Below are positions 11,126 to 53,258 of a stretch of DNA of 53,344 nt, piece after piece. Each line of letters begins with the position of its first letter. Position 1 is the first letter of the stretch. The stretch lies in contig PCBK01000074.1 in the NCBI GenBank assembly GCA_002731275.1, positions 1-53,344 of the forward strand, in the 5' to 3' direction. The notes under the pieces are model-generated. The model had not been told where the DNA came from. It did no database searches and saw nothing but the letters and a program-made list of their open reading frames with translations. This DNA comes from Deltaproteobacteria bacterium (GTDB lineage: Bacteria; Myxococcota_C; UBA6777). Position numbers and translations under genes: made by a program.

Positions 11126-12829
11126 ATGTACCCAATCCGTACGATTCTGCTATCCCTGGTTGTAGGGAGCCTGCTTATTCTCCAACAACAAGCCTGTGGC
11201 CCTACAGTCACGTGCAAGACCGAAACAATCAGCGACAACACAATCGATCCTTCGGGGAGTCCATGCACTCTCAAATGCGAATGCAACAATCTCAAATTCC
11301 GAGGAAATTGCGTCGATGGAACATGCTTCGCTGTCGCACGTGAAACCTGCCAAACCAAAGGCGCTGAACGTACATGTCGCATCGAAGAAGGCATGGGTGG
11401 CGAATGTAGACAAGGTATCCAGATATGCCAACCTTCTTACCTCTCCGCTCGCAGTTGGGGAGATTGTGAACCCAATTGCTCTGCGTGCACACCCAACACC
11501 TCGGAACCCTGTTACAACGGTCCCCCCGGAACCCTCAATGAAGGTCGATGTGTTGCAGGCATTCGGACCTGTTCCGCGAGTGGAGTCAAAGGCATCTGTG
11601 AAGGACAAAAATCCCCAACCCCCGAAGTGTGCAACGGAAAAGATGATGACTGCGATGGAGTCGTCGATGACAACTGCACACAAAGTGACGAGACCACACA
11701 AAACGAACCCGCACAAACCGAGACCATCACAGACGAGACAACACAGCCCGACGCAGGAAGCGAAAACGCACCCGAAACAACCCCAGCAGAGTGCACACCA
11801 AGCATCGAAACGTGTAACGGAAAAGATGACAATTGCAACGGACAAATCGACGAAGGACTCAGCTGCGCGAAGACATGGACTGTCACGACGTTCGCAGGGA
11901 GTACACAAGGATACAAAGACGGCAAAGGCACGCAAGCACAATTCGACAATCCATACGATCTCGTCTTCGACAAACAGGGCCAGCTCTACATGACAGACAG
12001 CAACAACACCAGAATCCGCAAGATCGATAAAGATGGAAATGTCACGACATATACAGGTTCACAAAGTGGATACAAAGATGGCCCACTCACACAAGCGCTC
12101 TTTGAAGGCCCCAAACATCTATTCATCGACTCCATGGGACAATTCTACCTGAGTGATCAAGAACGTATCCGAACCATCAACACTTCCGAAGTCATCACGA
12201 CGCTCACAGGCAGCACACAAGGGTACAAAGATGGCCCCATCGCACAAGCACTGTTCAACGACCCACAGGGGATCGCGCTAGACAACAAAGGCAACCTCTA
12301 CATCGCCGACAGCACCAACCACCGTATCCGAAAACTCGACACTTCAGGAAACGTCACGACATTCGCAGGGAGCACACAAGGATACAAGGACGGCAAAGGC
12401 ACACAAGCCCAATTCGACAATCCACACGACCTCGTCTTCGACAAACAGGGCCATCTCTACGTGACAGACAGCAGCAATGCCAGAATCCGAAAGATCGATA
12501 AGGATGGAAATGTCACGACTTACGCCGGAAATGCCCAGAGAGGTGACTTTGATGGACAGGGAACGCAAGCCCGCTTTGTCTATCCACACGGACTGACAAT
12601 CGACGCAGGTGGCAATCTCTATGTCACTGACCTCAGCGGACATCGTATCCGAAAAATCGACGCCAACGCCTACGTCTCGACAGTAGCAGGTAGCACACAG
12701 GGATTCAAAGACGCAGAAGCGACACAAGCCCAGTTTTACGCACCGAGAGGAATAACCATCGACACACAAGGAAACCTCTATGTTGTCGATGGACTCAATC
12801 ACCGCATCCGAAAAATCACCGCCCAGTAA
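11126..12829 (+). CDS. NHL-repeat lipoprotein with CNGKDDDCDG motifs
   Basis: A 567-residue exported protein preceded by GAGGAG. The N-terminal signal ends QQQACG, an imperfect lipobox. A Cys-rich region (about 24-130) follows, then two MopE-type acidic motifs CNGKDDDCDGVVDD and CNGKDDNCNGQIDE, common in myxobacterial surface proteins and able to bind metal in MopE-type proteins. A Thr/Glu-rich linker separates them. The C-terminal 310 residues are six NHL blades of about 52 residues (VTTFAGSTQGYKDG... LYVTDSSNARIRKID), enough for a closed six-bladed propeller. Blades 1 and 4 are nearly identical in protein and DNA with a 471-base offset (11882 and 12353), so a three-blade block was duplicated. 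It is probably a surface-anchored binding protein. The next gene starts 94 bases on. Confidence 0.88.
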   Translation: MYPIRTILLSLVVGSLLILQQQACGPTVTCKTETISDNTIDPSGSPCTLKCECNNLKFRGNCVDGTCFAVARETCQTKGAERTCRIEEGMGGECRQGIQICQPSYLSARSWGDCEPNCSACTPNTSEPCYNGPPGTLNEGRCVAGIRTCSASGVKGICEGQKSPTPEVCNGKDDDCDGVVDDNCTQSDETTQNEPAQTETITDETTQPDAGSENAPETTPAECTPSIETCNGKDDNCNGQIDEGLSCAKTWTVTTFAGSTQGYKDGKGTQAQFDNPYDLVFDKQGQLYMTDSNNTRIRKIDKDGNVTTYTGSQSGYKDGPLTQALFEGPKHLFIDSMGQFYLSDQERIRTINTSEVITTLTGSTQGYKDGPIAQALFNDPQGIALDNKGNLYIADSTNHRIRKLDTSGNVTTFAGSTQGYKDGKGTQAQFDNPHDLVFDKQGHLYVTDSSNARIRKIDKDGNVTTYAGNAQRGDFDGQGTQARFVYPHGLTIDAGGNLYVTDLSGHRIRKIDANAYVSTVAGSTQGFKDAEATQAQFYAPRGITIDTQGNLYVVDGLNHRIRKITAQ

Positions 12830-12923: not shown

Positions 12924-14627
12924 ATGAGAACGATCCTCGTAACTTTGCTCACACTGAGCATCACTGTAAGCGCTGCCCATGCACGCTCATACCCGCAAAC
13001 ACAAACGTGGAAAAAGCACATGGTGACCGCAAAGTCCGAATGTGCAAGTATGAGACAGTGCATCGCCAAGTACCACAAACCCGTCAAACGCACCAAACAA
13101 ATCCTCACCCTCGTCCACCGCACAGCCCAATCCCTGAAAAAACTCGACAAGACATTGCGTGTCACAATCACTGCGCTAACAGCGCTCAAAAATGCCCCAA
13201 AGATTGGACCCGCAGTGACAAAAGTTGTCATCGCGCTGAAAAAAATCCATGGCCCGATCCAAACGGCGAGCGCAAAAATGTCCCAACTCGACGCACGACT
13301 TAAACCTGTACGGAACGTCGTGGGAAAAACCTCAAAGGCCATGAAGCTAGCGATCCAATACCTCAAACGCGCCGAAAAAGTTCTCGCCGTGACACACAAA
13401 ACAGTCCAACAAGTCGAACGTTGCTTGCGCTCGATGTCCGCCTCACAACAAAATACATGGGGTCCCAAACTCGAACGAACAGCACGCACACAAAACACAC
13501 TCTACCCCCATTTTCACAACGCCGCTGTCTACCTCCAAAAACCCTGTCACATCTCCTTCTTCAATCCTGCGAGCTTTATCAATGTCTTCAACCCACTCGA
13601 CAATATCGCAGGGAGCCTCGGAAAGCTCGAAGGATACTTCAAAAAACTCGACCCCTTCACGAGCAAAATCAACCAAACCCTCAACATTCGCGTCATCGTC
13701 CCTCCCGGACTCGTCGCGATCGGCAATGTGTCAAACCTCCCACACAGCGCCCAAAGGCGTATCAGAATGTTTCAAGCGGGAATCAATGGATACAACAGCA
13801 AAATCAGAAGAAAATATAGAGAAATCAAAAAAATGGGGAGAATGATTGGTTCAAAACGATTTGTCAAACGCTGTATCCTCAGGCCGAGTAAGTGCCTCAA
13901 AATTTACAGCGTCAAAAAGCTCAGAAGCTGTGTGAGAAAATTTGGACGATGCAAGAGAAGATTGCGAAGCAAAATCAAGAACAGATACAAAGACATCAAT
14001 CAATACAGAGGCCAGATCTCCAACCTCCAACGAGCCATCCAACAAACCATCAGACAATACTCAGTCGTTTACACGATCGGCCAAATCATCCGTGGTGTCG
14101 ACAAACAATCACAAAAAGTCAAAGACTACCTCAAAAAACAAGCCGAAAAGGTGCTCGGAAAATACATGAGTTACCTGCAGCTCCCAGTCCCACAACTCCC
14201 AGGCCTTCAACAGCTCAGAGCGATGTACAACATCAAAACAAACATCATCAACGGACATGTGACTGGACTGAACAAGCTCACCAACTTAAACGCGCACTTT
14301 ACCTATATCAACAGATTTGCGCTCAATACACGCATCAACCTCAGCTCCATCACCAAGATCTGCAGCGCCAAACCCCAACCCAACCGCCAACCCGTCGCGC
14401 TTCTCTATGAACACTACAACTTCAAAGGTCGCGTATACAAACTCTACAAAAATACCCCGGCCCTCACAGGTTGGTGGAATGACAAGATCTCCTCGATCCG
14501 CATACTCCGAGGTCGTATCCTTTTGTACGAACACTACAACTATCGAGGAAGGTCTGCCTTCATCAGCACGAGCAAAAATATCACGGGTTGGTGGAACGAT
14601 AAAACATCGTCAATTCAGATCCGATAA
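12924..14627 (+). CDS. Secreted basic helical protein with C-terminal beta/gamma-crystallin domain
   Basis: A 567-residue protein with a cleavable signal peptide (LVTLLTLSITVSAAHA) and AGGAG upstream. Residues 25-480 are Lys/Arg-rich and mostly helical in appearance, with no family I recognise. The last 82 residues (486-567) form one beta/gamma-crystallin domain with two Greek-key motifs. Each starts LLYEHYNFKGR or LLYEHYNYRGR and ends with the calcium-clamp signature NDKISS or NDKTSS after TGWW. In this family the (N/D)(N/D)xx(S/T)S residues bind Ca2+, so calcium-dependent folding outside the cell is expected. It follows the NHL lipoprotein on the same strand. Confidence 0.82.
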   Translation: MRTILVTLLTLSITVSAAHARSYPQTQTWKKHMVTAKSECASMRQCIAKYHKPVKRTKQILTLVHRTAQSLKKLDKTLRVTITALTALKNAPKIGPAVTKVVIALKKIHGPIQTASAKMSQLDARLKPVRNVVGKTSKAMKLAIQYLKRAEKVLAVTHKTVQQVERCLRSMSASQQNTWGPKLERTARTQNTLYPHFHNAAVYLQKPCHISFFNPASFINVFNPLDNIAGSLGKLEGYFKKLDPFTSKINQTLNIRVIVPPGLVAIGNVSNLPHSAQRRIRMFQAGINGYNSKIRRKYREIKKMGRMIGSKRFVKRCILRPSKCLKIYSVKKLRSCVRKFGRCKRRLRSKIKNRYKDINQYRGQISNLQRAIQQTIRQYSVVYTIGQIIRGVDKQSQKVKDYLKKQAEKVLGKYMSYLQLPVPQLPGLQQLRAMYNIKTNIINGHVTGLNKLTNLNAHFTYINRFALNTRINLSSITKICSAKPQPNRQPVALLYEHYNFKGRVYKLYKNTPALTGWWNDKISSIRILRGRILLYEHYNYRGRSAFISTSKNITGWWNDKTSSIQIR

Positions 14628-14782: not shown

Positions 14783-17701
14783 TCAGGGAGGAGGAATACA
14801 CAGCGCACGGTAGGACACTTCGATGAGTGCTCCGGCGGCAGGGACTTGGCCCTTTGCAAAGGTGATGCTGTTGGTCACACCATCATATGTCCAACCATTT
14901 TGTGGATCTTTGGGGATGGAGACGCCGTTGACTTTGACCGTGATACTCGAAGGATCAGCAGGTCGACTCAAGAAGAACTGTGAACGATACCCAAAGGTCA
15001 CAGCCCCCAATTGGCTGAGTGTTTGCCCCCAGTTGGCCGTTGTGATGGTCTCATAGATACCACGTAGTTGTCTCGCGACTTCACCATACCGACACTTGCC
15101 TGCTTGTTGACAAGTCGCCTTGGGTTGGTAACCAATCGCCGACGCACGAAGCTTGTCGGGGTTGCGGATACCTTTGAGGCTCTTCAAGAAGTTGATATAG
15201 AATGCGACAGGCTGCTGTGAGTAATCCTTCTCATCGGAGACATAGATAACAGACAGCGAAGCATTTTGACGGTAGAAGCCAGCATTACATTTGTTGAGGT
15301 TGGTGGACAACGCGAGGTAGGAAGTTTGCAAGCCTCTCTCAGAGGCCGAACCACTCGTCCCAACCTTGATGTTATTGGAGAAAACAGTCTCCAGGTTGGG
15401 GGTTGTGTTGGTCAAAATCTTCGGTGTCCCACGCAAACAAGTCCCCTTTGAGACATCTGTTGTGATGATACCGATGTGGAAGTTAACCTGAAGTGTGGCT
15501 GCCCACTTGATGAATGACTTGAAGTTGTTCGCCATGTTGGTCTGGTCACCAGCCATCGAACAAGAGTCATCAATAACAAACAGGATATCGATATCAGGCT
15601 TTTGTTGCTGGCGGAAAATATCCTTCTGATTGTCCGTCGTCACCCCTTGTCCACGCAAGGAGATCAACACAGGAGACTGACCTGCGACGTTGTTGGCGAT
15701 CTCAAGCGTGCCGATATCCGTCCCCTGGTTTTTTGGAGCGTAGATCAAATCGATGGAGATAGCCTGACCATACGCGACATTGACAGGTGTGTTTGGAGCT
15801 TGTTTGAAGTAGAACTCCTTCAAGGGTTGATTTGTATTTGCGCCAAACTTGATGCCTGTGACTTTCGCTGTCGCCGTACAGATGTTGAAGAGGTCGAGCT
15901 TCTCATTGGGACTACTACAGTTGATCTTGACACTACCAAAGTCGACTGGATCAGGCAGCGCTTCGAGGCAGAGTTTACCCGTTGTCCCGACGAGTGGAAC
16001 CTCAATCAACGCAGCTTTGGGGTCGTTGGACTTGATCAAGAATTTTCCTTGGTATGCGGTCCCAGCCTTGGGTGTGTAGTTGATGTCGATACGCAAGGTC
16101 TGACCAGTGGGCAACACCTCTCCCCCTGCGTTGAGGCTTGTCGCGATCGCAAACACAGTCGAGGGGTTGGGGTTGATGTTTGCATCACGCAGAACACATT
16201 GTCCCCAGCCAGCGTTTGTAATCTGGATACTGCGACTTCTCGAACGACCTGTTCCAACGAAGCCAAATGCCACACTCGCAGGTTGGATCTTAAGCTCACA
16301 CTCACGTGAACCTTGCAACGAAGAGGTCAGAGGGACTTCGACTTTGGGATCACCGGGAGCATCAAGCTCGATCACAAGTGTACCTTTTCCGGTTCCACCT
16401 GCGGGCTTAAAGAGCACTGAAAATTCGAGTTTTTGGTTGGGTGCGATGGTTGTCGCAGCGGGTGGTGGTGCGCCAAAGGTAAATTCTTTGCTAGAGGTTG
16501 CTGAGAAGCCTGCTTGCTTGAATTTACAGGGTTGATTACCTCTGTTGGTCGCGAGGACCTTTTTGGTGCTTGGTGCGACAAAGTGAAGTTGTGCAGGAAC
16601 GGGTGTCAAGACACATCCTTCACCTTTGGCTTCCAGTTTCACATTCGCGAAGGGTGTGTCTGGATCGTTGCTAGCGACCTTTACCAGTCCTGCGTCATTT
16701 TGCAGGTCAGAGGATTTGTAGAGGACTTCGATTTTCTCCTCTCCGCCGGGCTTGATGATCAAGGGGAAAGTCGGAAGTGTCGGCATTGAGAAGTCTTTAC
16801 TGGTCGTTGCATCGAGTGTAATGCCAGTGACCTCAAGCTCCGTCCCACCCTGGTTTTTGATGGTGAAGGATTTGGTCTCTTGTCCCCCGACCTGCGCACC
16901 AAAGGACAACAAGGTAGGCTCAACGACAATATCAGGTGCCGCCATTTTACCGACGATACGAACTTCGTACCGACTGCTATCTCTGGTGTTGTTGATGACA
17001 TAGAGGATGTCATCGATCTTGGGTGTTTTGGGGGAGTATTTGACTTTGATTTCGACGGACTCGTTGGGAGCAATCGTAACAGGGAGGCTTAAGTTGTGGA
17101 CAACTTCAAGTTCGTTTTCTTTGTTGTTTTTGAACTCAAAAGCACTGACTTCAAGATCAGCCTGCCCTCGGTTTTCGATGGTAACGGTCTTTTCAGCGCC
17201 GTCTTCAGGCTTCACATCGCCAAAGTCGACGGGGTTGGGCGTGACGGAGATATCTGCGGTGACTTCGGAAGAGCGAAGTTTAACCTTTGTCAGTCCTTCG
17301 CTATTGTCGACGTTTGAAGCATCGCTAATAATCCGAACATGCCCTTCTGCGACACCAGCCTCTGTTGGTTTGTAGAGGATGCTGAGAGAGATCTTCTCGC
17401 CAGGCTGCAATTCCAAAGGAAGATCCTTTTTGGTTTGCAGTGAGTAGGCACTACTTACCTCGTTCACGACTTTCAGTTCGGTGATGGTCAGTGGGCTTTG
17501 CCCGATGTTTTCGATCTCAGTCTTGCGAGAGGCAGACTCACCAACAGCGATTGCAGCGTAGATAAGGGTTGGTGGAGAGACGCTGATTTTTGCCGTCCTT
17601 CCAACCCCACCGGGATCCGTACAATCGCAACCGCCCCCAACAGTGACCGCTGTAAACGCGATCACCACAAGGGCAAACCAGATGTTCCATCTTCTTTTCA
17701 T
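14783..17701 (-). CDS. Lipoprotein with HYDIN/ASH-like repeats and C-terminal vWA domain
   Basis: A 972-residue protein; the start follows AGAAGGAAG. The signal ends VGGGC, a plausible lipobox. About 650 residues then consist of repeated 100-residue 'choice-of-anchor D'/ASH-HYDIN-like beta domains, each with blocks like ISVTPNPVDFGDVKPEDGAE and KTVTIENRGQADLEV. Near residue 703 a von Willebrand A-type domain begins (DIDILFVIDDSCSM). It has an intact MIDAS DxSxS (Asp711, Ser713, Ser715), so metal-dependent ligand binding is likely. The end has paired Cys. It is surface-anchored by inference. It is divergent from the HNH gene and convergent with the crystallin gene. Confidence 0.83.
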   Translation of the reverse strand: MKRRWNIWFALVVIAFTAVTVGGGCDCTDPGGVGRTAKISVSPPTLIYAAIAVGESASRKTEIENIGQSPLTITELKVVNEVSSAYSLQTKKDLPLELQPGEKISLSILYKPTEAGVAEGHVRIISDASNVDNSEGLTKVKLRSSEVTADISVTPNPVDFGDVKPEDGAEKTVTIENRGQADLEVSAFEFKNNKENELEVVHNLSLPVTIAPNESVEIKVKYSPKTPKIDDILYVINNTRDSSRYEVRIVGKMAAPDIVVEPTLLSFGAQVGGQETKSFTIKNQGGTELEVTGITLDATTSKDFSMPTLPTFPLIIKPGGEEKIEVLYKSSDLQNDAGLVKVASNDPDTPFANVKLEAKGEGCVLTPVPAQLHFVAPSTKKVLATNRGNQPCKFKQAGFSATSSKEFTFGAPPPAATTIAPNQKLEFSVLFKPAGGTGKGTLVIELDAPGDPKVEVPLTSSLQGSRECELKIQPASVAFGFVGTGRSRSRSIQITNAGWGQCVLRDANINPNPSTVFAIATSLNAGGEVLPTGQTLRIDINYTPKAGTAYQGKFLIKSNDPKAALIEVPLVGTTGKLCLEALPDPVDFGSVKINCSSPNEKLDLFNICTATAKVTGIKFGANTNQPLKEFYFKQAPNTPVNVAYGQAISIDLIYAPKNQGTDIGTLEIANNVAGQSPVLISLRGQGVTTDNQKDIFRQQQKPDIDILFVIDDSCSMAGDQTNMANNFKSFIKWAATLQVNFHIGIITTDVSKGTCLRGTPKILTNTTPNLETVFSNNIKVGTSGSASERGLQTSYLALSTNLNKCNAGFYRQNASLSVIYVSDEKDYSQQPVAFYINFLKSLKGIRNPDKLRASAIGYQPKATCQQAGKCRYGEVARQLRGIYETITTANWGQTLSQLGAVTFGYRSQFFLSRPADPSSITVKVNGVSIPKDPQNGWTYDGVTNSITFAKGQVPAAGALIEVSYRALCIPPP

Positions 17702-36578: not shown

Positions 36579-37940
36579 TCAGCGCACAACATCCACAGTC
36601 TCCCCTTCGATCTGAACACGTTGTGGGAGTGAGACTTCAAAGCAGGCACCGACCCCGTCGGGGTTGGCACAACAGACAATCCTTCCCCCCATCCCCTCGA
36701 TCAACTCCTTACAAATCGTAAGCCCCAATCCCGCGCCAGGATGGGCCCCAATATGTGTCATCTCAAGCTGGACAAACTCGGAGAAGATAGACTCCCACTT
36801 ATCTTCGGGGATCCCCTTGCCTGTATCTCGTACACGGAACAAGTGCCACATTCCACCTTGCTGCAACTCTTGCGAGACTTCGAGGCGAATGCTCCCTTTC
36901 TCCGTAAACTTAACGGCGTTGTGAAGCAGATTCGTGAGCACTTGCAACAACCTCACTCTGTCCGCATACATCGTCCTCTCTGCGATCTGTATATCCAACG
37001 TAAGCGTGTTGGATGTACGCTCTGCGTACTTCTCCACGCTCTTGAGCGCGTCTTCGGCGAGCTGTTCGACAGAAAAATCTTCTAATGAGAACTGTAGTTG
37101 ACCGAGTTCGAGCTTTGAAAAGTCGAGAATATCGCGGATCAAATACAACAACGTCTCACCAGAACGCTTAATCTTACCGAGATCTTCGACACGCCCTTCA
37201 TCTCCATCATCCTCCGCGTCCTCCTGCATCATCTCCGCATACCCGATGATCACATTCAATGGAGTGCGTAATTCGTGACTCATCTTCGCCAGAAAGATCG
37301 TCTTGGCCTCGTTCGCCTGCTCAAGCTCCCCCTTCGCATAGTTGAGCTCCTTCAACGTACGGGTCCACTGCTCGATCAGATACGCCCACGGCAAAAACAC
37401 AGCCAAACACAACAACACCAACACGATAGTGCCACTGACCCACGGACGTGACATCGCAGAGTTCGCCTGGATGGAGAGCGGAATGGTTAAACTGCCACTC
37501 ACGAGGGCTGAAGAGACAAAGAAGATCGTGATGAGCACCCATCCCAGCGCAGCAAGCCCCGCTTTTCGACCAAAAAACATCCCCGCCATCACCACAAACG
37601 AGAACAAAAAGACACGCCCATCCCCACTCAGCCCGGCCAATAACAACCCAAGCAAACCAAAAGAGTAGATCACAAACAACAAAAACAACGCCCGGACAAC
37701 AAAGGTCGACCGCTTCGAAAATGTGATCCAGGCGAGAATACCGTAAAGCAATAGATAGATGGGAACAGGCGTCCAGAGCGAATCCATAAACGAATTGTAA
37801 ATCCCCGCACACACACCCAAGGAACCAAAGCCAAACACCACAATTGTGATCCTATTGAGGATAAACCCCAACCACTTTTTGTAATGCCCAATTTCATCCA
37901 ACGCTGGTGCACCGCGCGAGAGATCTTTCTCTTTCAACAT
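36579..37940 (-). CDS. Membrane sensor histidine kinase (orphan)
   Basis: A 453-residue kinase with about six N-terminal transmembrane segments (residues 25-190), a short coiled linker, the H box FLAKMSHELRTPLN (His222), N box VLTNLLHNAVKFT, G1 VRDTGKGI and G2 GAGLGLTICKELIEGMGG. There is no PAS, HAMP or receiver domain and no response regulator nearby. It lies 66 bases upstream of the M24 gene on the same strand. The signal is unknown; a 7TM-like or MASE-type sensor input is plausible. Confidence 0.88.
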   Translation of the reverse strand: MLKEKDLSRGAPALDEIGHYKKWLGFILNRITIVVFGFGSLGVCAGIYNSFMDSLWTPVPIYLLLYGILAWITFSKRSTFVVRALFLLFVIYSFGLLGLLLAGLSGDGRVFLFSFVVMAGMFFGRKAGLAALGWVLITIFFVSSALVSGSLTIPLSIQANSAMSRPWVSGTIVLVLLCLAVFLPWAYLIEQWTRTLKELNYAKGELEQANEAKTIFLAKMSHELRTPLNVIIGYAEMMQEDAEDDGDEGRVEDLGKIKRSGETLLYLIRDILDFSKLELGQLQFSLEDFSVEQLAEDALKSVEKYAERTSNTLTLDIQIAERTMYADRVRLLQVLTNLLHNAVKFTEKGSIRLEVSQELQQGGMWHLFRVRDTGKGIPEDKWESIFSEFVQLEMTHIGAHPGAGLGLTICKELIEGMGGRIVCCANPDGVGACFEVSLPQRVQIEGETVDVVR

Positions 37941-39027: not shown

Positions 39028-39576
39028 TTGACATGTCCATACGGCACCAAGAAATATCGTGTACAAAGCATACTCTTTCTCCTTTGTACCGTATGGATCA
39101 GTGTGTTTAGCTTGTCACACGCCAACGCAACGCCTTTGGATCCCCCAACACTCGATGAAAACGCTCAAGTCAATGGAGCGTCATCTCTTCGTTCCCCTGT
39201 CGGTCCTTTGTCTCTTCGACAACAATCTCTCGTAACAACGGGCATTCACGTTGCGATCCCGGTGTTGATCCTCGACATCATCCCTCTACTAGGCAATCTC
39301 GTCGCGCTCCCATCAGGAGCAGGTCGACTCACCTGGGGGATCTTCGGCGTCTCATTTGGCGCTGTTGGGAGCCTTTTGACGATCCCAGCGATGAACATTC
39401 CATATGTGGGGATGGCCCTGGTCATTTTACAGACGTTCTTAATCGTCTTGAGCACCACCAACATCGTCCTCTCTCAATTCTTTCCCCAAGCGAGAGAGAA
39501 TCCCATCCGCCTTATATCAGCGACAAGTCACATAAACATCCACACACACGGCAGCACCCTTCGTGTGACCTTTTAG
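39028..39576 (+). CDS. Exported small membrane protein, paralogue 1
   Basis: A 182-residue protein starting at TTG 39028 after AGGAGAG. It has a signal-like N-terminus (FLLCTVWISVFSLSHANA), a polar linker and three hydrophobic segments (VAIPVLILDIIPLLGNLVAL; WGIFGVSFGAVGSLLTIPA; MALVILQTFLIVLSTTNIV). The tail (THGSTLRVTF) ends in Phe. It is paralogous to the next gene, sharing GNLVA, RL.WGI.G and TNIV at matching places. Function is unknown. The next gene begins 8 bases after its stop. Confidence 0.7.
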   Translation: MTCPYGTKKYRVQSILFLLCTVWISVFSLSHANATPLDPPTLDENAQVNGASSLRSPVGPLSLRQQSLVTTGIHVAIPVLILDIIPLLGNLVALPSGAGRLTWGIFGVSFGAVGSLLTIPAMNIPYVGMALVILQTFLIVLSTTNIVLSQFFPQARENPIRLISATSHINIHTHGSTLRVTF

Positions 39577-39584
39577 CCAACAAC

Positions 39585-40196
39585 ATGGTCAAAACAATGC
39601 AACACAGCTTTTGTCTCCAACACACCATCTCTTTCGCGTTTGCGTGCCTGTTTGTGCTGTTTGGTATAGCGAACGTACAAGCATCACCACTTCAAACGGC
39701 GCCCCTCCGTGTACCAGCTCTCGAAGACAAGACAACTCCATTTTTACTACGCCCACCCCAACTGCAATTGCCTCGAAGACAATGGAGAAGACACGGCGAG
39801 CTGAGTGTTCTTTCGCAGAAACAGAGCATCACCTCGGACCCTGATCTTCTTACAGCCTCCTTGATCTTGTTGATCCCAACAACCCTCGCGGAGCTTACGA
39901 TCTTTATCGGGAACTTGATCGCCTTTACCACCAAGAAAGCCCGCCTTCTCTGGGGGATTCAGGGGGCAGCGATGAGCGTACTTGGTGCGCTGGTGTCGTT
40001 GCCTTGGATACTCAGTGGACTGAGGAACGGCATGGCAGTCCCGTTTATCGCCCTACATGTGGCTCTTTTGGGGGTAAGTATCACCAACATCGTCCAGTAC
40101 CAACCCCCCAAAAAAACGAGCGTGCTCACCCCGTGGTTCTCCATCCACCCCACTCATGGAGCGCAAGTTGGCGTATCCTACCTTGGTCAATTTTGA
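39585..40196 (+). CDS. Exported small membrane protein, paralogue 2
   Basis: A 203-residue protein with signal FAFACLFVLFGIANVQA, a basic Pro-rich linker, three membrane segments (LILLIPTTLAELTIFIGNLIAF; GIQGAAMSVLGALVSLPWIL; MAVPFIALHVALLGVSITNIV) and the tail HPTHGAQVGVSYLGQF. It is a diverged tandem duplicate of the preceding gene and in the same operon. No enzyme motif is visible. Confidence 0.7.
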   Translation: MVKTMQHSFCLQHTISFAFACLFVLFGIANVQASPLQTAPLRVPALEDKTTPFLLRPPQLQLPRRQWRRHGELSVLSQKQSITSDPDLLTASLILLIPTTLAELTIFIGNLIAFTTKKARLLWGIQGAAMSVLGALVSLPWILSGLRNGMAVPFIALHVALLGVSITNIVQYQPPKKTSVLTPWFSIHPTHGAQVGVSYLGQF

Positions 40197-41415: not shown

Positions 41416-44400
41416 CTACTTGTAATTACCAAGCTGATACACGAGCTCTCTGTACAATCGGATATCGAGCTGTGTGAGCGTTTGAAGTGTCCGGATGGAG
41501 AGCATCTCCTCAGTCCAGATACTGTGTTCGCGAATCACCTCGTCGAAGATTCCACTGATACGCTCGTTGGGGTGCTTGTCTTCTTCTCCACAACTCGCAG
41601 CAAATGACTTAAAGATCTCGTACAGATCATCCCGACGTGCGAGGTACACTCGCCACAACACGCGGAGCTCTTCCTCGGAGAGGGGTCTCGTCGCAAGTCT
41701 CCGACATGTGAGCTCAAAACGTTGGTATTCCTTGTCGCGAATGGGTGAAAACAAGCGTCCCCAAAAGCGCTTCCATTGAGACCTGACCCGTCGAAGGAGT
41801 TGTGTCTTGGGGGCTACTTCTGCGCTGAGCACTTCATCCACGAAATCTTCAAGCGCTTCAAAGGAGAGATGCAAGCTTCGGATCTTCTTGTAGTCGGAGA
41901 TATAGCACGCAGTGATCGCCCTGATCACCTCACCACGCTTGGCGACAAGGCCCGGCGCGACGTTGTGAAGGTAACCGTGTAGCTGTTCACCACTCAATCC
42001 CACATGCTCGAGTAACAAGTGAAGGTCCTCTAGCTGTTTCTCACGAGTTTCGCGTAAGACCTCGAACATCCGACGCTCTCGTTTGATAGCGCCAATGTAA
42101 TCGAGATCTTGACTGAAGCCATATCCCTCGATCCCTGAGCCTTGATGTCCAGGCAAAAAGAGCCCCAAGTACTCAACATCAAACAGCGCACGAAGCCTCA
42201 TACACTCGATATACACAGGTTTTCTCATCCTGTTGATCTTGCGAATCGCGACGCCAAAGTGCGTGCGCCCCGGATGGGTTTGTTCGCTGTGAGAAGGAGG
42301 CTGGAGGACATCTCGTACGAGCTTTAGCACTCGCTGTACCCCCCAAACAGTGAACTTCACAAACGACCACAAGAGCGTGATCGGCAACAAGAAGATCTTG
42401 CCACTCGAAGCATAGCTTTGGTAAAGCTGGTAGAAATTCACCGTGCGTTGTTCTTTGGGGAGTGTATGAAACGGAAAGAAGCCGAATAAATCGCGGATCA
42501 GGTGTTCGCGCTCTTGTTGCATCAAGGACATCACATCCTCACCAAAGATATCTTTGATGATCTCGTCTTGCTCGTTCTGATTGGAGAGAAAGTGCAACGC
42601 GGTGAAGGTCGTCGTGCGAAAGGGCACCTCGTGTTTTTTGGAGCGCTGCACAGGAAGTCTCATCCCGGCGAGCTTCTTTTTGCGGTTTTGTCGCCACGTC
42701 TGATAATGCGCAAGACTCTCTTCTGACTGCCACGCAAGCTCCTTGAGAGGGATACAATTTTGGTTGTACTCAGCGATCAACTGCGCGACGCGGTGGGCGA
42801 GACTATCGGTGATCGAGGCAAACCAAAGATAGGGCCCCAAATACAGAAGAAGTTTGGCTCGTGAGAGGTCGAGCCGCTCGATACGTAGCCCTTCTAAAAG
42901 AGAGAGGGAGAGCCGATGTTTTCGAACGTTTTGGATCGCGATGTTTCCGAGCAACTGGTTCGTTGTCTGCCTGTCACTCTTGTGTAGTGGTGTCCCATCG
43001 AGATAATCTTCGTACAGTTGCAAGACCTTCTCTTGTGCGTGCCACTGTGGTTGGAAATGAAAACCAGGGTCTTGTGTCGGCTCTGCTCGCCAATCAGAAG
43101 ATTCATGCCCCACAGCCATCGCCTGAAGGTGTCCAGAGAGTTGTCGAAAGGATGCGGACTCAGGCGTAACACTTCCGTCCTTGAGGACCTCTTCTGCTTG
43201 CAATACGCGCCGCAACAGCTCGCGTAAATCGTTGTCCTGATTGAGCAACTTGATCTGCTTGAGGCGACCGATGAATTGAGCCTCCGAGATCCTCGCGAAA
43301 AAATCAGTCGCCTCACCTGCGATCATCCGGAACCAGAGCCCCAACAGCAAGGGGATCATACTGAGCAAACCCAAAATGATGATCGGCGCACCGAGATATT
43401 TTCCCAAAAAGCCCGACACGCCACTCAACGCACCAAATGAGAACAAGTTGATCAGCCCTGACACGAGCAAAAACAAAAACCCAAACATAAACAATCTGCG
43501 GGCTGGACGCATCGTCGCATTCACCAGTGTTAATCCGATACGATCGAGGACTTGTGGCCCTGTCACCATGCCATAAAAGTCACCGGCCCAATAGATCCAG
43601 GACTGAATACGTTCCAATCCTCCACCGACTCGTCGAATAAACCAGGCAACAAGCGCCGCCGTGTCCAACTCGTCATGGGCCCGTGCGAGCTGATAAAATC
43701 CAGGAAGACTTCGGATAATAGGCGAAGAAAACAATTGAAAAGCACGATTGCAGTAACGAATGAAGTCAAAGCCCAGCACCTCTTCGACTTGTACCGCGTC
43801 CATCCCCAACATCTTGTTGACGAGGACCTCAAAAGAGATGTCCCCCCCGCCCAAAAACATATCGCTCTGTGTCCAGATACGGTACGTCCCACCGTACATC
43901 GACACTGTGGATTGCACATTGCGAAGCTGCTCCTCAAGAAGCGCCAGACGTGGAGCCGCTTCGGTCTTTTGCAACACCAATGATAAGCGCTTCCGACATC
44001 GTTCACGGAGCGTTTGTAGCTCCAAAGAGAAAGAGGACGTGTCCTCACCGACGTTGTCTTCAGGTGCAGGAAACAACACGATGTTGCGGTTAAACACAGT
44101 CTCATATTTCCGAAGTAGACGATCCGTACCGCGCACCATGAAGGACAGCAGACGAAACATCCGAATCAATGGACGGAAGATACGGACATACCGCGCAAGA
44201 CGTGAGACACGGACAAGGCGAAGCGCCCGCCCTCCAGAGAGAGAAGCGATAAATACGGTTGGATTCCACAACCAGATCAAAAAGGAGAACGGGATGGAGG
44301 GCAAGAAGTCGATCAAGAAGTGCCGACGGACATAGAGCAAGCGTCCCTCAGCCATCCACAACTTCACACCGAACTCGGCCAAAAACAGCGCACATACGAT

Positions 44401-45720
44401 CGTATCGACGATCATCAACACAAAACGCACCTGCACAGGCAGCGGTATACTCGCCTCGACGATCAACAACACCAACACCAACAAGATCAGCCACAGGACT
44501 GTATTTTCGGAGATCTCAACGGCCTTGCGACCGAAAGTTGTCTCCAAACGCGTTTGCAATTTACGTTCTTGTAGCTCCGCACGGATACGTCGCCTGAAGC
44601 CATCGATCTGGTTGATCAGCTTGTCGAATTGTGTGCGCGCAAAAAAGCGTCGCTCGCGCAGATCGGATGTAAGTGACAACACCCACAACACAAAATCCTG
44701 CAAGATCTCCATCAACGCGACGGCCTCAACCAAAGAGATATCATCGATCTCAGCGAGCTGTTCATCGATTTGATCGAGCACTTGTTGCACGCGCTCCTGG
44801 AACCACTCACGAGCTTCTTTCGCGGTACAATCCGCGATGTAATGCCCAACCTTTTCGCGAAGAGCGTGACACTCTCCCTGTGTCTTTTCAAACAAAGCAG
44901 TAAGCGCAGCTGTATCCTGCAAGCCCTGATCTCTCACAATCGCTGAACGAATCGTCAAAAGAAGCAGCTGACCTTTGACCAACAACTCCCAATCCTCAGC
45001 ATGCTTGTCTTCGTCAGGTCTCGCAGTAAGCGATGGTGTCGCGTGTGCAAATGCTTCCACGCTCGAAGGTGCGCGGAAAGGCTCAATGTTGACCTCAGTC
45101 GCCGCAACACCTTCGACACCATCGATACGCTGTACCTCAGCAGCACGTAGCGCCTCGACATCTTGGATGTAGAACTCTCCCTCGTGAACGATCATCTCCT
45201 GCCGAATCCCTGCCACTTGGAGTTTGAGCGTGTTGAGCCTCTGTTGTTCTTCTGAGGGCAGCTCTTTGACACCAACGCGATAGAGCTCGCGCTCTATCAA
45301 AGAGAGATTCGCAGAGGCACCAGCGAGCAGGTGTGCCCCCTCTTCTTCGAAGCCTTCTGAGACCCACTGAAACGCCTCAATCTCTCGATGCAGCAAGCGC
45401 ACTTTCTGTGCAGCCTCGGCAGGATCAAGTGTCATATCCCCTACCAACGTCTCAAAGTTGTACTTGAGCTGCTCAAAGGTACTCGATGCCCGCTCCAATC
45501 GCTGCTCAGGGGTTAATCGACGCGGAATCTCTTCGATGTACTCCCGAATTTGTTGCTGAAGTAGCTCAGCGTGGCGATGCTTTGCCAGCTCGTGTGGGGG
45601 TAAAAACTCGCGCATCCATCCCAAAAAACGGGCCAAAAACCACGTATGCTCCCAGACGTCCCTCGCGTTGGGCTCGCGAAGATACTGCTCGATTTGCTTG
45701 AGAAGCGATTCCAATGTCAT
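41416..45720 (-). CDS. Giant membrane protein with voltage-sensor-like domain
   Basis: A 1434-residue protein. Residues 1-400 are coiled and helical, rich in Glu and Arg. Residues 407-530 match an ion-channel S1-S4 unit: S2 with Glu449 and Lys453 (FLAEFGVKLWMAEG), S3 with Asp471 (LIDFLPSIPF), and S4 with Arg at every third position from 498 to 516 (seven arginines), then 520 and 523. No S5-pore-S6 or selectivity filter follows; the chain becomes soluble (residues about 540-730). A second hydrophobic region lies near 735-800 and a single one near 1150-1175. The last 250 residues are charged and helical. It may act as a voltage- or membrane-sensing scaffold. The usual ion-channel role is not supported by a pore. 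Confidence 0.8.
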   Translation of the reverse strand: MTLESLLKQIEQYLREPNARDVWEHTWFLARFLGWMREFLPPHELAKHRHAELLQQQIREYIEEIPRRLTPEQRLERASSTFEQLKYNFETLVGDMTLDPAEAAQKVRLLHREIEAFQWVSEGFEEEGAHLLAGASANLSLIERELYRVGVKELPSEEQQRLNTLKLQVAGIRQEMIVHEGEFYIQDVEALRAAEVQRIDGVEGVAATEVNIEPFRAPSSVEAFAHATPSLTARPDEDKHAEDWELLVKGQLLLLTIRSAIVRDQGLQDTAALTALFEKTQGECHALREKVGHYIADCTAKEAREWFQERVQQVLDQIDEQLAEIDDISLVEAVALMEILQDFVLWVLSLTSDLRERRFFARTQFDKLINQIDGFRRRIRAELQERKLQTRLETTFGRKAVEISENTVLWLILLVLVLLIVEASIPLPVQVRFVLMIVDTIVCALFLAEFGVKLWMAEGRLLYVRRHFLIDFLPSIPFSFLIWLWNPTVFIASLSGGRALRLVRVSRLARYVRIFRPLIRMFRLLSFMVRGTDRLLRKYETVFNRNIVLFPAPEDNVGEDTSSFSLELQTLRERCRKRLSLVLQKTEAAPRLALLEEQLRNVQSTVSMYGGTYRIWTQSDMFLGGGDISFEVLVNKMLGMDAVQVEEVLGFDFIRYCNRAFQLFSSPIIRSLPGFYQLARAHDELDTAALVAWFIRRVGGGLERIQSWIYWAGDFYGMVTGPQVLDRIGLTLVNATMRPARRLFMFGFLFLLVSGLINLFSFGALSGVSGFLGKYLGAPIIILGLLSMIPLLLGLWFRMIAGEATDFFARISEAQFIGRLKQIKLLNQDNDLRELLRRVLQAEEVLKDGSVTPESASFRQLSGHLQAMAVGHESSDWRAEPTQDPGFHFQPQWHAQEKVLQLYEDYLDGTPLHKSDRQTTNQLLGNIAIQNVRKHRLSLSLLEGLRIERLDLSRAKLLLYLGPYLWFASITDSLAHRVAQLIAEYNQNCIPLKELAWQSEESLAHYQTWRQNRKKKLAGMRLPVQRSKKHEVPFRTTTFTALHFLSNQNEQDEIIKDIFGEDVMSLMQQEREHLIRDLFGFFPFHTLPKEQRTVNFYQLYQSYASSGKIFLLPITLLWSFVKFTVWGVQRVLKLVRDVLQPPSHSEQTHPGRTHFGVAIRKINRMRKPVYIECMRLRALFDVEYLGLFLPGHQGSGIEGYGFSQDLDYIGAIKRERRMFEVLRETREKQLEDLHLLLEHVGLSGEQLHGYLHNVAPGLVAKRGEVIRAITACYISDYKKIRSLHLSFEALEDFVDEVLSAEVAPKTQLLRRVRSQWKRFWGRLFSPIRDKEYQRFELTCRRLATRPLSEEELRVLWRVYLARRDDLYEIFKSFAASCGEEDKHPNERISGIFDEVIREHSIWTEEMLSIRTLQTLTQLDIRLYRELVYQLGNYK

Positions 45721-45754: not shown

Positions 45755-46633
45755 TCAGCGAAGACTCAATTCCACCCGACGGTTCGCTGCACGACCAGCC
45801 TGTGTACGATTAGAGCGAATAGGACGAAGGTGACCATACCCACGGATGGTCATACGATTCTTTTTCATCCCCATCATCATCAGGATACGAGAGAGGAATT
45901 TTGCCCTCTTCTTGTCGATGAGTGTGTATGTTTTCTCTCGTACATCTCTATGTCCAGCGATCACAAGGCTTTTGGCTTGGTACGTCGACAACGCACACCT
46001 CGCAAACAGCGCAAGCACAGGGCAAGCACGAGCAGGCTTCGCGAAACGCTTGTAACGTCCTGGAGCAAAGTGAAGCGCCACAGTCTTTGGACAGAGCGTC
46101 GCATTTGTGGGCTTCATGTATTGTTTTGGACAGGCTGAAAATACCGGAAAGATACGTCTGGAAGGTGCTTTCAGAAGAGTAGTAAGGCGCCTCGCCGGTG
46201 GCGGACCTCCACCCACACGGTGAAAGGCGATCCGCGCATTGAACATACGCCCCTTCCTCGTGCGATTGCTCTCGATGGGACAATCCTCGCCCATTCCCGC
46301 GACACGAAGTGGTGATTTAACACCGAGCTTCTGCAAAAATGCCCTCACCTGCTCAGCACGTTTGAGAGAACGAACTTGGTTGAAACGACTGCTTCCTTGA
46401 CTATTGGTGTGTCCTGCAATCAGGATCACATCGTTCTTTCCTTTAAGTGAGCCTGCAAACAGATTGAGCTCAACCTTCAGACGCGAGATCCAATCACCAC
46501 GCCAGGAGCGAACACGCATCACAGACAGCGGTTTTCCTTGCGGGCAAGGCGCAGCCTCAACCCCCCCCCCAAAGAAAAGGCATACACCAAGAAAAACCCA
46601 TACCGCGCTATATTGGATGTGGTGAGATCGCAT
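45755..46633 (-). CDS. Tandem OmpA-like peptidoglycan-binding protein
   Basis: A 292-residue exported protein with AGGAGG before the ATG. The signal peptide is VWVFLGVCLFFGGGVEA. Two OmpA-C-like domains are visible: the first with LIAGHTNSQGSSRFN and RSLKRAEQVRAFLQKLGV, the second with VIAGHRDVREKTYTLIDKKR and GHLRPIRSNRTQAGRAANRR. Such domains bind peptidoglycan diaminopimelate. The chain is very basic, with extra Cys. The signal region is encoded across a run of ten G, so a length change would shut off expression. The distance to the giant gene on the same strand is 34 bases. Confidence 0.83.
   Translation of the reverse strand: MRSHHIQYSAVWVFLGVCLFFGGGVEAAPCPQGKPLSVMRVRSWRGDWISRLKVELNLFAGSLKGKNDVILIAGHTNSQGSSRFNQVRSLKRAEQVRAFLQKLGVKSPLRVAGMGEDCPIESNRTRKGRMFNARIAFHRVGGGPPPARRLTTLLKAPSRRIFPVFSACPKQYMKPTNATLCPKTVALHFAPGRYKRFAKPARACPVLALFARCALSTYQAKSLVIAGHRDVREKTYTLIDKKRAKFLSRILMMMGMKKNRMTIRGYGHLRPIRSNRTQAGRAANRRVELSLR
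46561..46570. repeat. C10/G10 homopolymer in the OmpA-like gene
   Basis: Ten consecutive C on the plus strand (G on the coding strand) encode the Gly-Gly-Gly-Val part of the signal peptide. Such tracts change length by slippage and are known phase-variation switches. Confidence 0.9.
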
Positions 46634-50050: not shown

Positions 50051-52924
50051 TTATTGTATAACGAAAGAATCGGAAGCGATAGACTCGTAAGGATTGGTAC
50101 TACCTTGTGCACGCGACCACACCTGAATGACATATGAGCCCGCCGCAAGTCCTGTTGTGTCCCAGTTACAGGTTGTGCTGGTGCTATAGTTACACAGCGT
50201 AGACCAAGCTCCTGCTGGCGTGCGTAGCCAGAACTGGTACTCAGCTGTTCCACCTGTACATGTCGCGTTTCCTGTGAAGGTTACACTTGTCCCGGCTGTT
50301 TGTGGTGAAGCGGGACCAGCGCTGAGACCCACAAAGTTGCATGCGTTACCAGTGATTGTATACGAAGCGAAGGTCGTGCTTTGGTAGGCTTCTGTGCTTC
50401 CTTGTGCGCGAGCCCAAACGTACAAAATGTAATCACCCGCAATAGAAGGTGTCCAATTGTGTGTATCCGATGTTGAGTAATCCTGGACGAGCGATGTTGT
50501 CCCTTGCGGATTACGGATGTAGAAGATGTACTCAGGTGTTCCGGAGTTTGTACACGTCACGTTGCCTGTGATGTCAATCGACGTAAACTCGGACTGTGGC
50601 GAAGTTGGATTTGTGGACATGGAGACGTTGTTACAGTAGGACGCACCATTTGTGATCTCGTACTTCATAATGGAAGACGCAGCATCCAACGTCGCAGTGC
50701 TACCTGTCTTACGAACCCAAACTTGCCAGTTGTAATTTCCGCTAAAGGCACCTGTGGTATCCCAGATGTAGCTGGCGCTTCCCCAGTCACGAACCATCAC
50801 CCAGCCCTGGCCTTCTTGTTGACGATAAAATTTGAACTCAGGAATGACACCACCGGAGCAGGTCGCGCTTGCAGAGAAGAGGATACTCGTCCCTGCGACT
50901 TGGGGACTGACTGGTGTCGAGGAGAGTGAGGCTGCGGTACATGTTCCAGAGTTGGTTGTTTCCTGGAAGACATACATCGCACCTGTTTGATCAGCGCCAT
51001 TGTAACCGTTGCTTCCGACCAATGTAATAGAAGCCCCAAGTGAGACGGCGCGACCAAAGCCGACAAAAGTACTCACGTCGCTAGGAGTCAGCTTTTGGGT
51101 TTGTGACCAAGTGGAGCCACTGCGTGTGAATGTATAGACAGAGCCCGTCAAACCTTCACCAGGTGCCCCTGCAACGACAAAGCCACCGTCGATCGCAACA
51201 GATGTACCAAAGAAGTCGAGCTGATCAGCGTCTGAAGCGTTAAGTGTTTGTTGAAGGCTCCAGGTGGTGCCACTTCTGGTGTAGACAGCCGCTGAACCTG
51301 TGAAGCTGCTTCCGCTTTGTGGAATACCCACGACCAGATCGTCACCATCGAGATCGAGTGAACGTCCAAATGCCAGTGCAGCACTTGAAGGGTTAGAGGG
51401 TTGGATTTTTTGTTCTTGTGTCCAAGTTGTACCGCTACGTGTAAAGACATACGCAGCACCACCAGGATTACCAGTTCCATCATCCGAAGGCGCGCCGATC
51501 GCGACGTTGTCCGTGTTGAGCGCCAAAGCCTCTCCGAAGTTACCACCATCGCCAGTCAATTTTTGCTGCTCGGTCCAAGTCGTTCCGCTCCTGACAAACG
51601 CGTAAACAGCACCACTACCAGAGTCGTCGTTGGGTGCGCCAACGACAACAGTGTCACCAACAATAGCCGCGGAGAAGCCAAATTGATCGCCCGCCGCGGC
51701 ATCGCTTGCGGTCAGGATCTGTTGCTGAACCCAGACACTGCTCGTGCTGTTGTAATTGTAAATGTATGCAGAGCCGGAGTTGGAACCAGTGCTGTCTTTG
51801 TCTGGTGCCCCAACAACAATGTACTCACCACTGATCGCGACGGCACGACCAAATCGATCCGTCAGCGCACGATCCGACGCAAAGATCTTTTGTTCTTGTG
51901 TCCAGGTCGTGTCACTGCGCGTAAAAATGTACGCCGTCCCGGTACCACCTTCGTAGACCGCACCGACAACCGCACGATCACCTGAATCATCGATCGCGAG
52001 GCTGTAATAACCAAAGTTATCATCTTCCGTTGCGTCATTGGAGAGGACCTTGGTTTGTGTGTTGAAGACGGGATCGATCTCGATGGGGTAGGTTGCTTTG
52101 CTGTCATCGACGAGCAGGATGATCTGCTTTCCATCCAACTTCATCCGCGCGGGGAGTGTTTTACCCTTCGCGTCTTTTACGAAGAGCTCTCTGTAGTAGA
52201 GGGATTTTTTTCCGTCCGCAGTCCGAAACACAATGCCCTGTTTGGAGGGAAGCATTTCAGCACGCAAGTTGGTTGAAAAGGCGAGCTTCAACACGAGTAA
52301 AGCCTGCTTGGAGGGACGGGACTGGGGCTCGCTTGAGAGCGTAAAACCCTGCTCAACCCCGAGTGGACCGTTGATATACCACTCAGAGAGAGCGCCTTTT
52401 GTTCCTTTGTATGTGTATGTCATGCGGTTGCCAGCAGCCTTGCGTTGTGCCAGCGAAACAGGCTTGACTTTCCCCTCATAACCGACGGAGTCCAACTTGA
52501 TAGAGAATTGCCAGTTCTCTTCTCCAGGCTGAGACAACAGCTGTGTTTGTGATGGATGGAACATCGTCGTCAAGCGTTGTGGAAGGTTGGACGCGAGGAA
52601 AGTTTGCACTCCCTTTGTCAACACTCCCTTCTTGAGTTGGAAGGTTTTGGGGGCGTCTTTTTGTAAGGTCGAAATCATCGCCATACGAAGACCGCGAGGG
52701 ATCACTTTTTTCGCGCTTGTGTTTTGAAGGTTCAGCTTTTGGACAGGGACAACCTCTCCAGTACGCACCACCTCAGGGCTTGTCGATACTACAGGCTCAC
52801 TCGTAGGTGAGGTCTGTGAGCAAGCGACAAAGCCAAATGTGGCAGCCAGCAAGAAAGCGACACCCACAAAACGAAAAGACCAGGCACCTTTGCCTGATTT
52901 TTTTGTGTTTCTTTGTTTTCTCAT
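50051..52924 (-). CDS. FG-GAP beta-propeller lipoprotein
   Basis: A 957-residue protein; ATG 52924 is favoured over TTG 52939, with GGAG upstream. The lipobox region is FGFVACS. Residues about 270-660 hold seven FG-GAP/integrin-alpha-like blades (DRFGRAVAISGEYIVVGAPD; YVFTRSGTTWTQEQKI), one full propeller. The last 290 residues are three repeats of about 85-95 residues, each with two Cys near its start and a C-terminal block like YNWQVWVRKTGS or YVIQVWSRAQGSTNPY. The N-terminal 230 residues (about 40-270) are not recognised. The protein is surface-anchored by inference; adhesion is plausible. Confidence 0.85.
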   Translation of the reverse strand: MRKQRNTKKSGKGAWSFRFVGVAFLLAATFGFVACSQTSPTSEPVVSTSPEVVRTGEVVPVQKLNLQNTSAKKVIPRGLRMAMISTLQKDAPKTFQLKKGVLTKGVQTFLASNLPQRLTTMFHPSQTQLLSQPGEENWQFSIKLDSVGYEGKVKPVSLAQRKAAGNRMTYTYKGTKGALSEWYINGPLGVEQGFTLSSEPQSRPSKQALLVLKLAFSTNLRAEMLPSKQGIVFRTADGKKSLYYRELFVKDAKGKTLPARMKLDGKQIILLVDDSKATYPIEIDPVFNTQTKVLSNDATEDDNFGYYSLAIDDSGDRAVVGAVYEGGTGTAYIFTRSDTTWTQEQKIFASDRALTDRFGRAVAISGEYIVVGAPDKDSTGSNSGSAYIYNYNSTSSVWVQQQILTASDAAAGDQFGFSAAIVGDTVVVGAPNDDSGSGAVYAFVRSGTTWTEQQKLTGDGGNFGEALALNTDNVAIGAPSDDGTGNPGGAAYVFTRSGTTWTQEQKIQPSNPSSAALAFGRSLDLDGDDLVVGIPQSGSSFTGSAAVYTRSGTTWSLQQTLNASDADQLDFFGTSVAIDGGFVVAGAPGEGLTGSVYTFTRSGSTWSQTQKLTPSDVSTFVGFGRAVSLGASITLVGSNGYNGADQTGAMYVFQETTNSGTCTAASLSSTPVSPQVAGTSILFSASATCSGGVIPEFKFYRQQEGQGWVMVRDWGSASYIWDTTGAFSGNYNWQVWVRKTGSTATLDAASSIMKYEITNGASYCNNVSMSTNPTSPQSEFTSIDITGNVTCTNSGTPEYIFYIRNPQGTTSLVQDYSTSDTHNWTPSIAGDYILYVWARAQGSTEAYQSTTFASYTITGNACNFVGLSAGPASPQTAGTSVTFTGNATCTGGTAEYQFWLRTPAGAWSTLCNYSTSTTCNWDTTGLAAGSYVIQVWSRAQGSTNPYESIASDSFVIQ

Positions 52925-53258
52925 ACGATCAGTCTCCAATCACAATGGAACACACCCCACTCTCCAAGAGCAGCGCCGAATCATGGTAAGAATAGTATAA
53001 GTTACGGAAAGAACGTTGTCTTTGGTATCAATCTATCACAACAGAAATATACTTTGCAAACAGGAAAAGAGGGCTTTCTGCAAACCCTTCATGAAGATAC
53101 AACGACACAATCCTATTTCTCTGAAGTACAACGTTTATCACAAATAAAACCCACTCTTCCCCAAAAAACTCTCAAAAAAATACAGGCGAACACACAAACA
53201 CGCGCCAATCCCCCCACAAAGGCAACCTCAGACAGTCAGATTCAAAAGAGTGAACTTA
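52925..53258. other. Non-coding region
   Basis: About 330 bases with A-rich, low-complexity sequence. A plus-strand open frame (52913-53269) lacks a ribosome site and starts within the promoter zone of the lipoprotein gene. The lipoprotein promoter should be near 52950-53010. Confidence 0.45.

Follow-up and report, generated by a model that had tools for sequence, protein, structure and literature searches.

Is a bacterial voltage-sensor domain (VSD) always tied to an ion pore? The question is raised by a single gene in a stretch of 53,344 nucleotides (the window, positions 1 to 53,344 of contig PCBK01000074.1, assembly GCA_002731275.1) from a Deltaproteobacteria bacterium that GTDB places in Myxococcota_C, UBA6777. 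The gene encodes a protein of 1434 residues, hereafter the VSD protein. A 2023 review, which drew on database searches, holds that no prokaryotic VSD lacks an accompanying K, Na or Ca pore (PMC10377628). A 2025 review gives Hv, Kv, phosphatase and solute transporter as the contexts of VSDs (PMC12332018), and a passage of a further paper names SLC9C1 as the only known VSD-regulated transporter (PMC10620092). Here we propose, with a probability of roughly 0.55, that the VSD protein is a bacterial voltage-sensing membrane protein composed of a Kv/HCN-type VSD, a two-helix hairpin and a helical domain, and that it does not act through a classical ion pore. At slightly better than even odds, it would represent the first prokaryotic VSD family that does not gate a K, Na or Ca pore, the membrane potential driving a hairpin-plus-cytoplasmic module in Planctomycetota and in a Myxococcota-like phylum. 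If this is true, modular re-use of voltage sensors arose in bacteria too, a concrete candidate for direct bacterial reading of membrane potential is at hand, and a new effector becomes available for engineering voltage reporters.

The sensor domain

The original prediction, made from the DNA sequence, described a 1434-residue protein with an S1-S4 voltage sensor, and this description is borne out by an intact open reading frame (ORF), a match to Ion_trans and conserved charge sites. The VSD spans residues ~398-538. Ion_trans is the single Pfam-A family found in the VSD protein (25.7 bits, residues 405-523; cut-off 25 bits). The match covers positions 5-120 of a profile of 241 positions, which is the voltage-sensor half alone, and the family is likewise matched by all 19 aligned homologues.

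The charged residues that had been read in S2, S3 and S4 are present (Table 1). In an alignment of 46 homologous proteins spanning two phyla, these sites are nearly invariant. All 46 carry an acid at position 422 in S1, as well as D439 and an acid at 449 in S2, and 45 have Lys or Arg at 453. The charge-transfer position 446 is Phe in 41 proteins and Leu in 5. D439, F446, E449 and K453 are spaced exactly as E283, F290, E293 and R297 are in Shaker. The S3 acid (D/E471) is found in 43 of the 46 proteins. Regarding S4, R501, R504, R507 and R510 are each present in 44 and R523 in all; P517, within S4, is an invariant Pro. Basic residues occupy every third position from 498 to 516, a run of seven that was reached by one of 3000 whole-protein shuffles, and the longest such run of Arg or Lys is only 4 or 5 in five of the 46 proteins. 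The N-terminus preceding the VSD is weakly conserved.

Structure models are consistent with this assignment. An AlphaFold2 (AF2) model of residues 240-1434, for which 19 natural sequences served as the alignment, has a mean predicted local distance difference test score (pLDDT) of 75.7 and a predicted template modelling score (pTM) of 0.62; for a model of residues 385-860 the values are 71.9 and 0.35. Both agree on the limits of S1, S2, S3, S4 (approximately 494-538) and the two later helices as listed in Table 1. In the models S4 sits, with modest confidence, in a four-helix VSD bundle and not outside the membrane. Using VIA-align, the VSD of the 385-860 model superposes best on Kv4.2 (Z 12.5, 3.2 Å, 127 residues), and further on HCN1 (Z 10.2, 2.8 Å, 116 residues) and on the VSD of Ci-VSP (Z 10.2, 4.2 Å, 120 residues); VSD superpositions were also obtained with the model of 240-1434. 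The Foldseek list for the shorter model is headed by the VSDs of KvAP and Kv4, at non-significant E-values. Taken together, sequence and models strongly support a VSD anatomy in this protein.

An S1-S4 bundle might also have been kept for anchoring, or for binding lipid or protein, and not respond to voltage. The invariant P517 in S4 and the loss of the S3 acid in some members would fit such a role, but gating-charge and counter-charge sites, including the charge-transfer residues of S2, are kept across two phyla, which is unexpected for a mere anchor and makes this explanation rather improbable. We infer that S4 moves in response to voltage.

What follows the sensor

A classical channel would continue from S4 into S5, a pore loop and S6. 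The original prediction held that none of these follows, and with regard to the pore this is correct. No S5-P-loop-S6 is found right after S4, the Ion_trans match ending at profile position 120-121 of 241, and neither AF2 model shows a pore domain downstream. A selectivity-filter motif resembling TVGYG or TLESW is absent from the VSD protein; a looser filter pattern has no match among 46 relatives except, in 3 of them, an N-terminal TLSLG that is unrelated. With regard to S5 and S6 it is not entirely correct: strong hydropathy peaks at residues 743-761 and 779-797 mark a conserved pair of transmembrane (TM) helices. Together with the large helical domain downstream, this hairpin refutes the description of the protein as consisting of a voltage sensor only.

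The hairpin is reached through a linker of 177-193 residues across the family. Its turn measures three residues in both AF2 models. Of 45 homologues, 33 have exactly 55 residues over the stretch 743-797, and the remainder have 49-71. Such a stretch leaves no room for a pore helix and filter in addition to two full helices, and a pore hidden in the hairpin is ruled out by this spacing, the turn length and the missing filter. The TM helices consist almost wholly of apolar residues, and G747, G784 and G794 are invariant or nearly so. It is possible, though unlikely, that an oligomer of hairpins forms an unconventional pathway for ions or solutes, which would make the protein a voltage-gated channel or transporter whose pore bears no relation to S5-P-S6. 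Two conserved TM helices after the VSD in the same chain, the three glycines and a very low ratio of nonsynonymous to synonymous substitution (dN/dS) speak for such a pathway; the almost entirely apolar helices, the lack of both a re-entrant loop and a filter motif, and a linker that does not resemble the short one joining S4 and S5 in channels speak against it.

A pore might instead be supplied by another protein, the VSD protein acting in trans as the regulatory subunit of a separate pore-only channel. The source genome encodes three Ion_trans proteins with VSD and pore, four with the pore half and one with the VSD half, the last being this protein alone, so that several candidate partners exist. 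However, the pore-only matches lie on other contigs, and no common pore gene or K+ filter motif occurs beside the gene in 19 loci; an arrangement of this kind is highly improbable.

The hairpin together with the C-terminal part appears to be a module in its own right, to which a VSD may have been added, because the two also occur without a VSD elsewhere. A few genomes encode VSD-less proteins of ~520-590 amino acids that match the hairpin and the C-terminal domain. In a profile-profile comparison, five of them aligned with the family over 462 columns, from hairpin to C-terminus (probability 99.8, E 1e-29). Two VSD-less proteins were scanned with Pfam and gave no match, and at the two loci examined their neighbours are ordinary and differ. 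Within the C-terminal domain, G1107 and P1113 are conserved in a third hydrophobic stretch.

On these grounds we favour a protein in which the VSD acts on a non-pore module. The hairpin and the C-terminal domain are likely to be the effector, the latter being probably cytoplasmic and its most conserved block (residues 900-990) likely its functional end. Upon a change in membrane potential, the Arg-rich S4 would move through the charge-transfer site formed by S2 and S3. The helical continuation of S4 and the linker of ~180 residues would relay this movement to the hairpin, which may in turn alter the shape or the partners of the C-terminal domain. The output would be a protein interaction or a regulatory act rather than ion flow.

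Several observations weigh against the proposed voltage sensor with a non-pore output. S4 is modelled at a pLDDT of 50-67. With pTM values of 0.62 and 0.35, the packing of VSD and hairpin is not established by the models. Foldseek E-values are non-significant with both models, the best being 0.5. Moreover, helical bundles can attain VIA Z-scores of 10-12 by chance, and the case for VSD homology therefore rests mainly on the Pfam match and the charge pattern. The C-terminal part could be assigned neither an enzymatic domain nor a known fold: a sequence-profile search of the PDB gave no significant match, nor did Foldseek for this fold when run with the whole 240-1434 model, in which the C-terminus was folded together with the rest. 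Finally, an all-against-all comparison of flanking ORFs at 19 loci brought up no conserved neighbour from which an output could be read. A likeness to ExbB/TolQ appeared in weak Foldseek rows (E ~6-8), which we took as noise; Pfam gives no MotA/ExbB match.

Table 1. Coordinates of the gene for the VSD protein, its parts and the VSD-less relatives
Feature	Residues	Coordinates	Strand	Basis
Gene for the 1434-residue VSD protein	1-1434	41416..45720	-	uninterrupted ORF
N-terminal helical arm, predicted cytoplasmic	1-397	44530..45720	-	AF2 helices from residue 240 onward
S1, with E422	398-424	44449..44529	-	AF2 helix
S2, with D439, F446, E449, K453	429-456	44353..44436	-	AF2 and alignment
S3, with D471 and LPSIPF motif	460-475	44296..44343	-	AF2 and alignment
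S4 and helical continuation, with R498, R501, R504, R507, R510, R513, R516, R520, R523	494-538	44107..44241	-	alignment and AF2; membrane register uncertain
S4-to-hairpin linker, predicted cytoplasmic	539-720	43561..44106	-	AF2 and alignment
Long TM helical hairpin, no pore loop	721-759 and 763-826	43243..43560	-	hydropathy and two AF2 models
C-terminal helical domain	827-1434	41419..43242	-	AF2; profile-profile match to VSD-less proteins
Most conserved C-terminal block, YEDYLDGTPLHKSD..TTNQLLGN ... GPYLWF	900-990	42751..43023	-	invariant columns
Third hydrophobic stretch, possibly membrane-associated or amphipathic	1103-1127	42340..42414	-	weaker hydropathy peak
VSD-less relatives		L064:607-2163; L063, 568-aa ORF (minus strand); L068; L069; L070		

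Relation to known voltage-sensing proteins

To our knowledge, the VSD uses outside K, Na and Ca channels (Hv1, voltage-sensing phosphatases, SLC9C1 and TMEM266) are all eukaryotic. The VSD protein shares with Kv and HCN/EAG channels, all of Ion_trans, the S1-S4 fold, the acids of S2 and S3, the charge-transfer Phe, the Arg periodicity of S4 and an S3 motif of the D..xSIP type, and its best sequence matches in the PDB are HCN4 and hERG. Whereas these channels continue into S5-P-loop-S6 with a filter, in the VSD protein their place is taken by a long linker and a tight hairpin of unrelated type, followed by a large helical C-terminus.

Hv1, like the VSD protein, has a VSD without a pore domain. 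This likeness, and the fact that residue 422 in S1 is acidic throughout the 46 proteins, would be in keeping with a VSD that itself conducts protons in the manner of Hv1. Yet none of the 46 has Asp or Glu in the S1 core (406-420), which includes the position expected for the selectivity Asp of Hv1, and position 500, corresponding to the S4 Trp of Hv1, is never Trp. The Hv1 S4 motif RxWRxxR does not occur in the VSD protein; RAWRLAR is found at a shifted position in two distant relatives (L037, L038). The VSD protein further differs from Hv1 by its roughly fivefold length and its additional TM hairpin. No prokaryotic Hv1 is reported in the 2023 review (PMC10377628), and proton conduction by the VSD has very little probability.

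In Ci-VSP the VSD is coupled to a large non-channel part, as in the VSD protein, whose model superposes on the Ci-VSP VSD. The effector of Ci-VSP is a phosphatase, whereas the putative effector here includes further membrane helices. Pfam identified no phosphatase family in the VSD protein or 19 homologues, and the VSD protein lacks an HCx5R motif. SLC9C1, as a passage of PMC10620092 describes it, carries its VSD in one chain with a membrane module other than a K, Na or Ca pore, like the VSD protein, but the order of modules differs. Neither a Na+/H+ exchanger domain nor a cyclic-nucleotide-binding domain was detected by Pfam in the VSD protein or the 19 homologues. The parts that define Hv1, the voltage-sensing phosphatases and SLC9C1 are thus absent, and the VSD protein is none of these. 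TMEM266 is a functional voltage sensor without a pore, and its output is unknown (PMC6392501); by its description this vertebrate protein is set apart from the VSD protein, since it has neither the hairpin nor the C-terminal module.

Pairing of a VSD with a partner that is not a K, Na or Ca pore is hence of a known kind and, as far as we found, a first in prokaryotes. A giant bacterial protein of a new type had been anticipated, and in the open-access literature, to which our search was confined, we found no description of one having a canonical VSD without S5-P-S6 and nothing relevant on bacterial VSD-only proteins. The VSD protein belongs to a bacterial family that is real, conserved and apparently undescribed, in which a VSD is combined with a non-pore module.

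Distribution, selection and neighbouring genes

The gene is present in all five genomes of the source phylum. Among 60 related genomes searched, matches were confined to five genomes of the same family. An alignment-based scan of genome contigs gave 18 loci: 4 from the same phylum, 12 labelled as Planctomycetota or a subgroup of it, one labelled as Verrucomicrobia and one unclassified. In public records the four same-phylum loci are labelled as Myxococcota, Myxococcales or Deltaproteobacteria metagenome-assembled genomes. A profile search of 392 sampled Planctomycetota genomes gave strong matches in 57 (E below 1e-20, counted from the result table). Weaker matches were mostly short proteins covering the VSD region only, which fits ordinary channels. 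As for the Verrucomicrobia-labelled genome, it alone of the 288 genomes searched in its phylum has the family. The occurrence in five of five and 57 of 392 genomes points to a real, old and widespread family.

Two same-genus orthologues, whose proteins are 95% identical, gave a dN of 0.024 and a dS of 0.30; the VSD protein is under strong purifying selection. With approximate region borders, dN/dS is lowest in the VSD and the hairpin (~0.03 each), followed by the C-terminus (0.06), the N-terminus (0.10) and the linker (0.13). Orthologues from dozens of Planctomycetota and from the phylum's four other assemblies rule out a chance pattern or mis-assembly, as does a dN far below dS. No relative was found on viral contigs or plasmids, and PHROGs gave one weak match, to the VSD only; an origin from phage or plasmid is thereby ruled out. 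A defence system was also considered and rejected, there being no PADLOC match.

Directly upstream of the gene, at a distance of 34 bp and on the same strand, lies an ORF for a 292-residue protein with two OmpA-family stretches (45755-46633, minus strand). It is ruled out as an operon partner, since at the 19 loci no neighbour is common beyond close relatives; the pairing with the OmpA-type gene is not preserved among relatives. A few kilobases from the VSD gene lies the gene for a histidine kinase that has MASE11 as its membrane sensor domain (36579-37940, minus strand). Two tandem small membrane proteins (39028-39576 and 39585-40196, both plus strand) have no Pfam match and share 28% identity over 125 amino acids (E 3e-11).

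Other genes of the window encode a 962-residue protein that contains seven FG-GAP_2 repeats and matches Y_Y_Y weakly (50051-52939, minus strand) and a 972-residue protein built of ASPM-SPD-2-Hydin / Cep192-like Ig domains (14783-17701, minus strand), which are familiar chiefly from the cilia and centrosomes of eukaryotes. A 567-residue protein has a C-terminal beta/gamma-crystallin domain (12924-14627, plus strand); the neighbouring NHL-repeat protein (11126-12829) is of the same length and is not its paralogue. The product of 2270-4018 (plus strand) is predicted to be an ABC-class ATPase and has an MRB1590_C domain.

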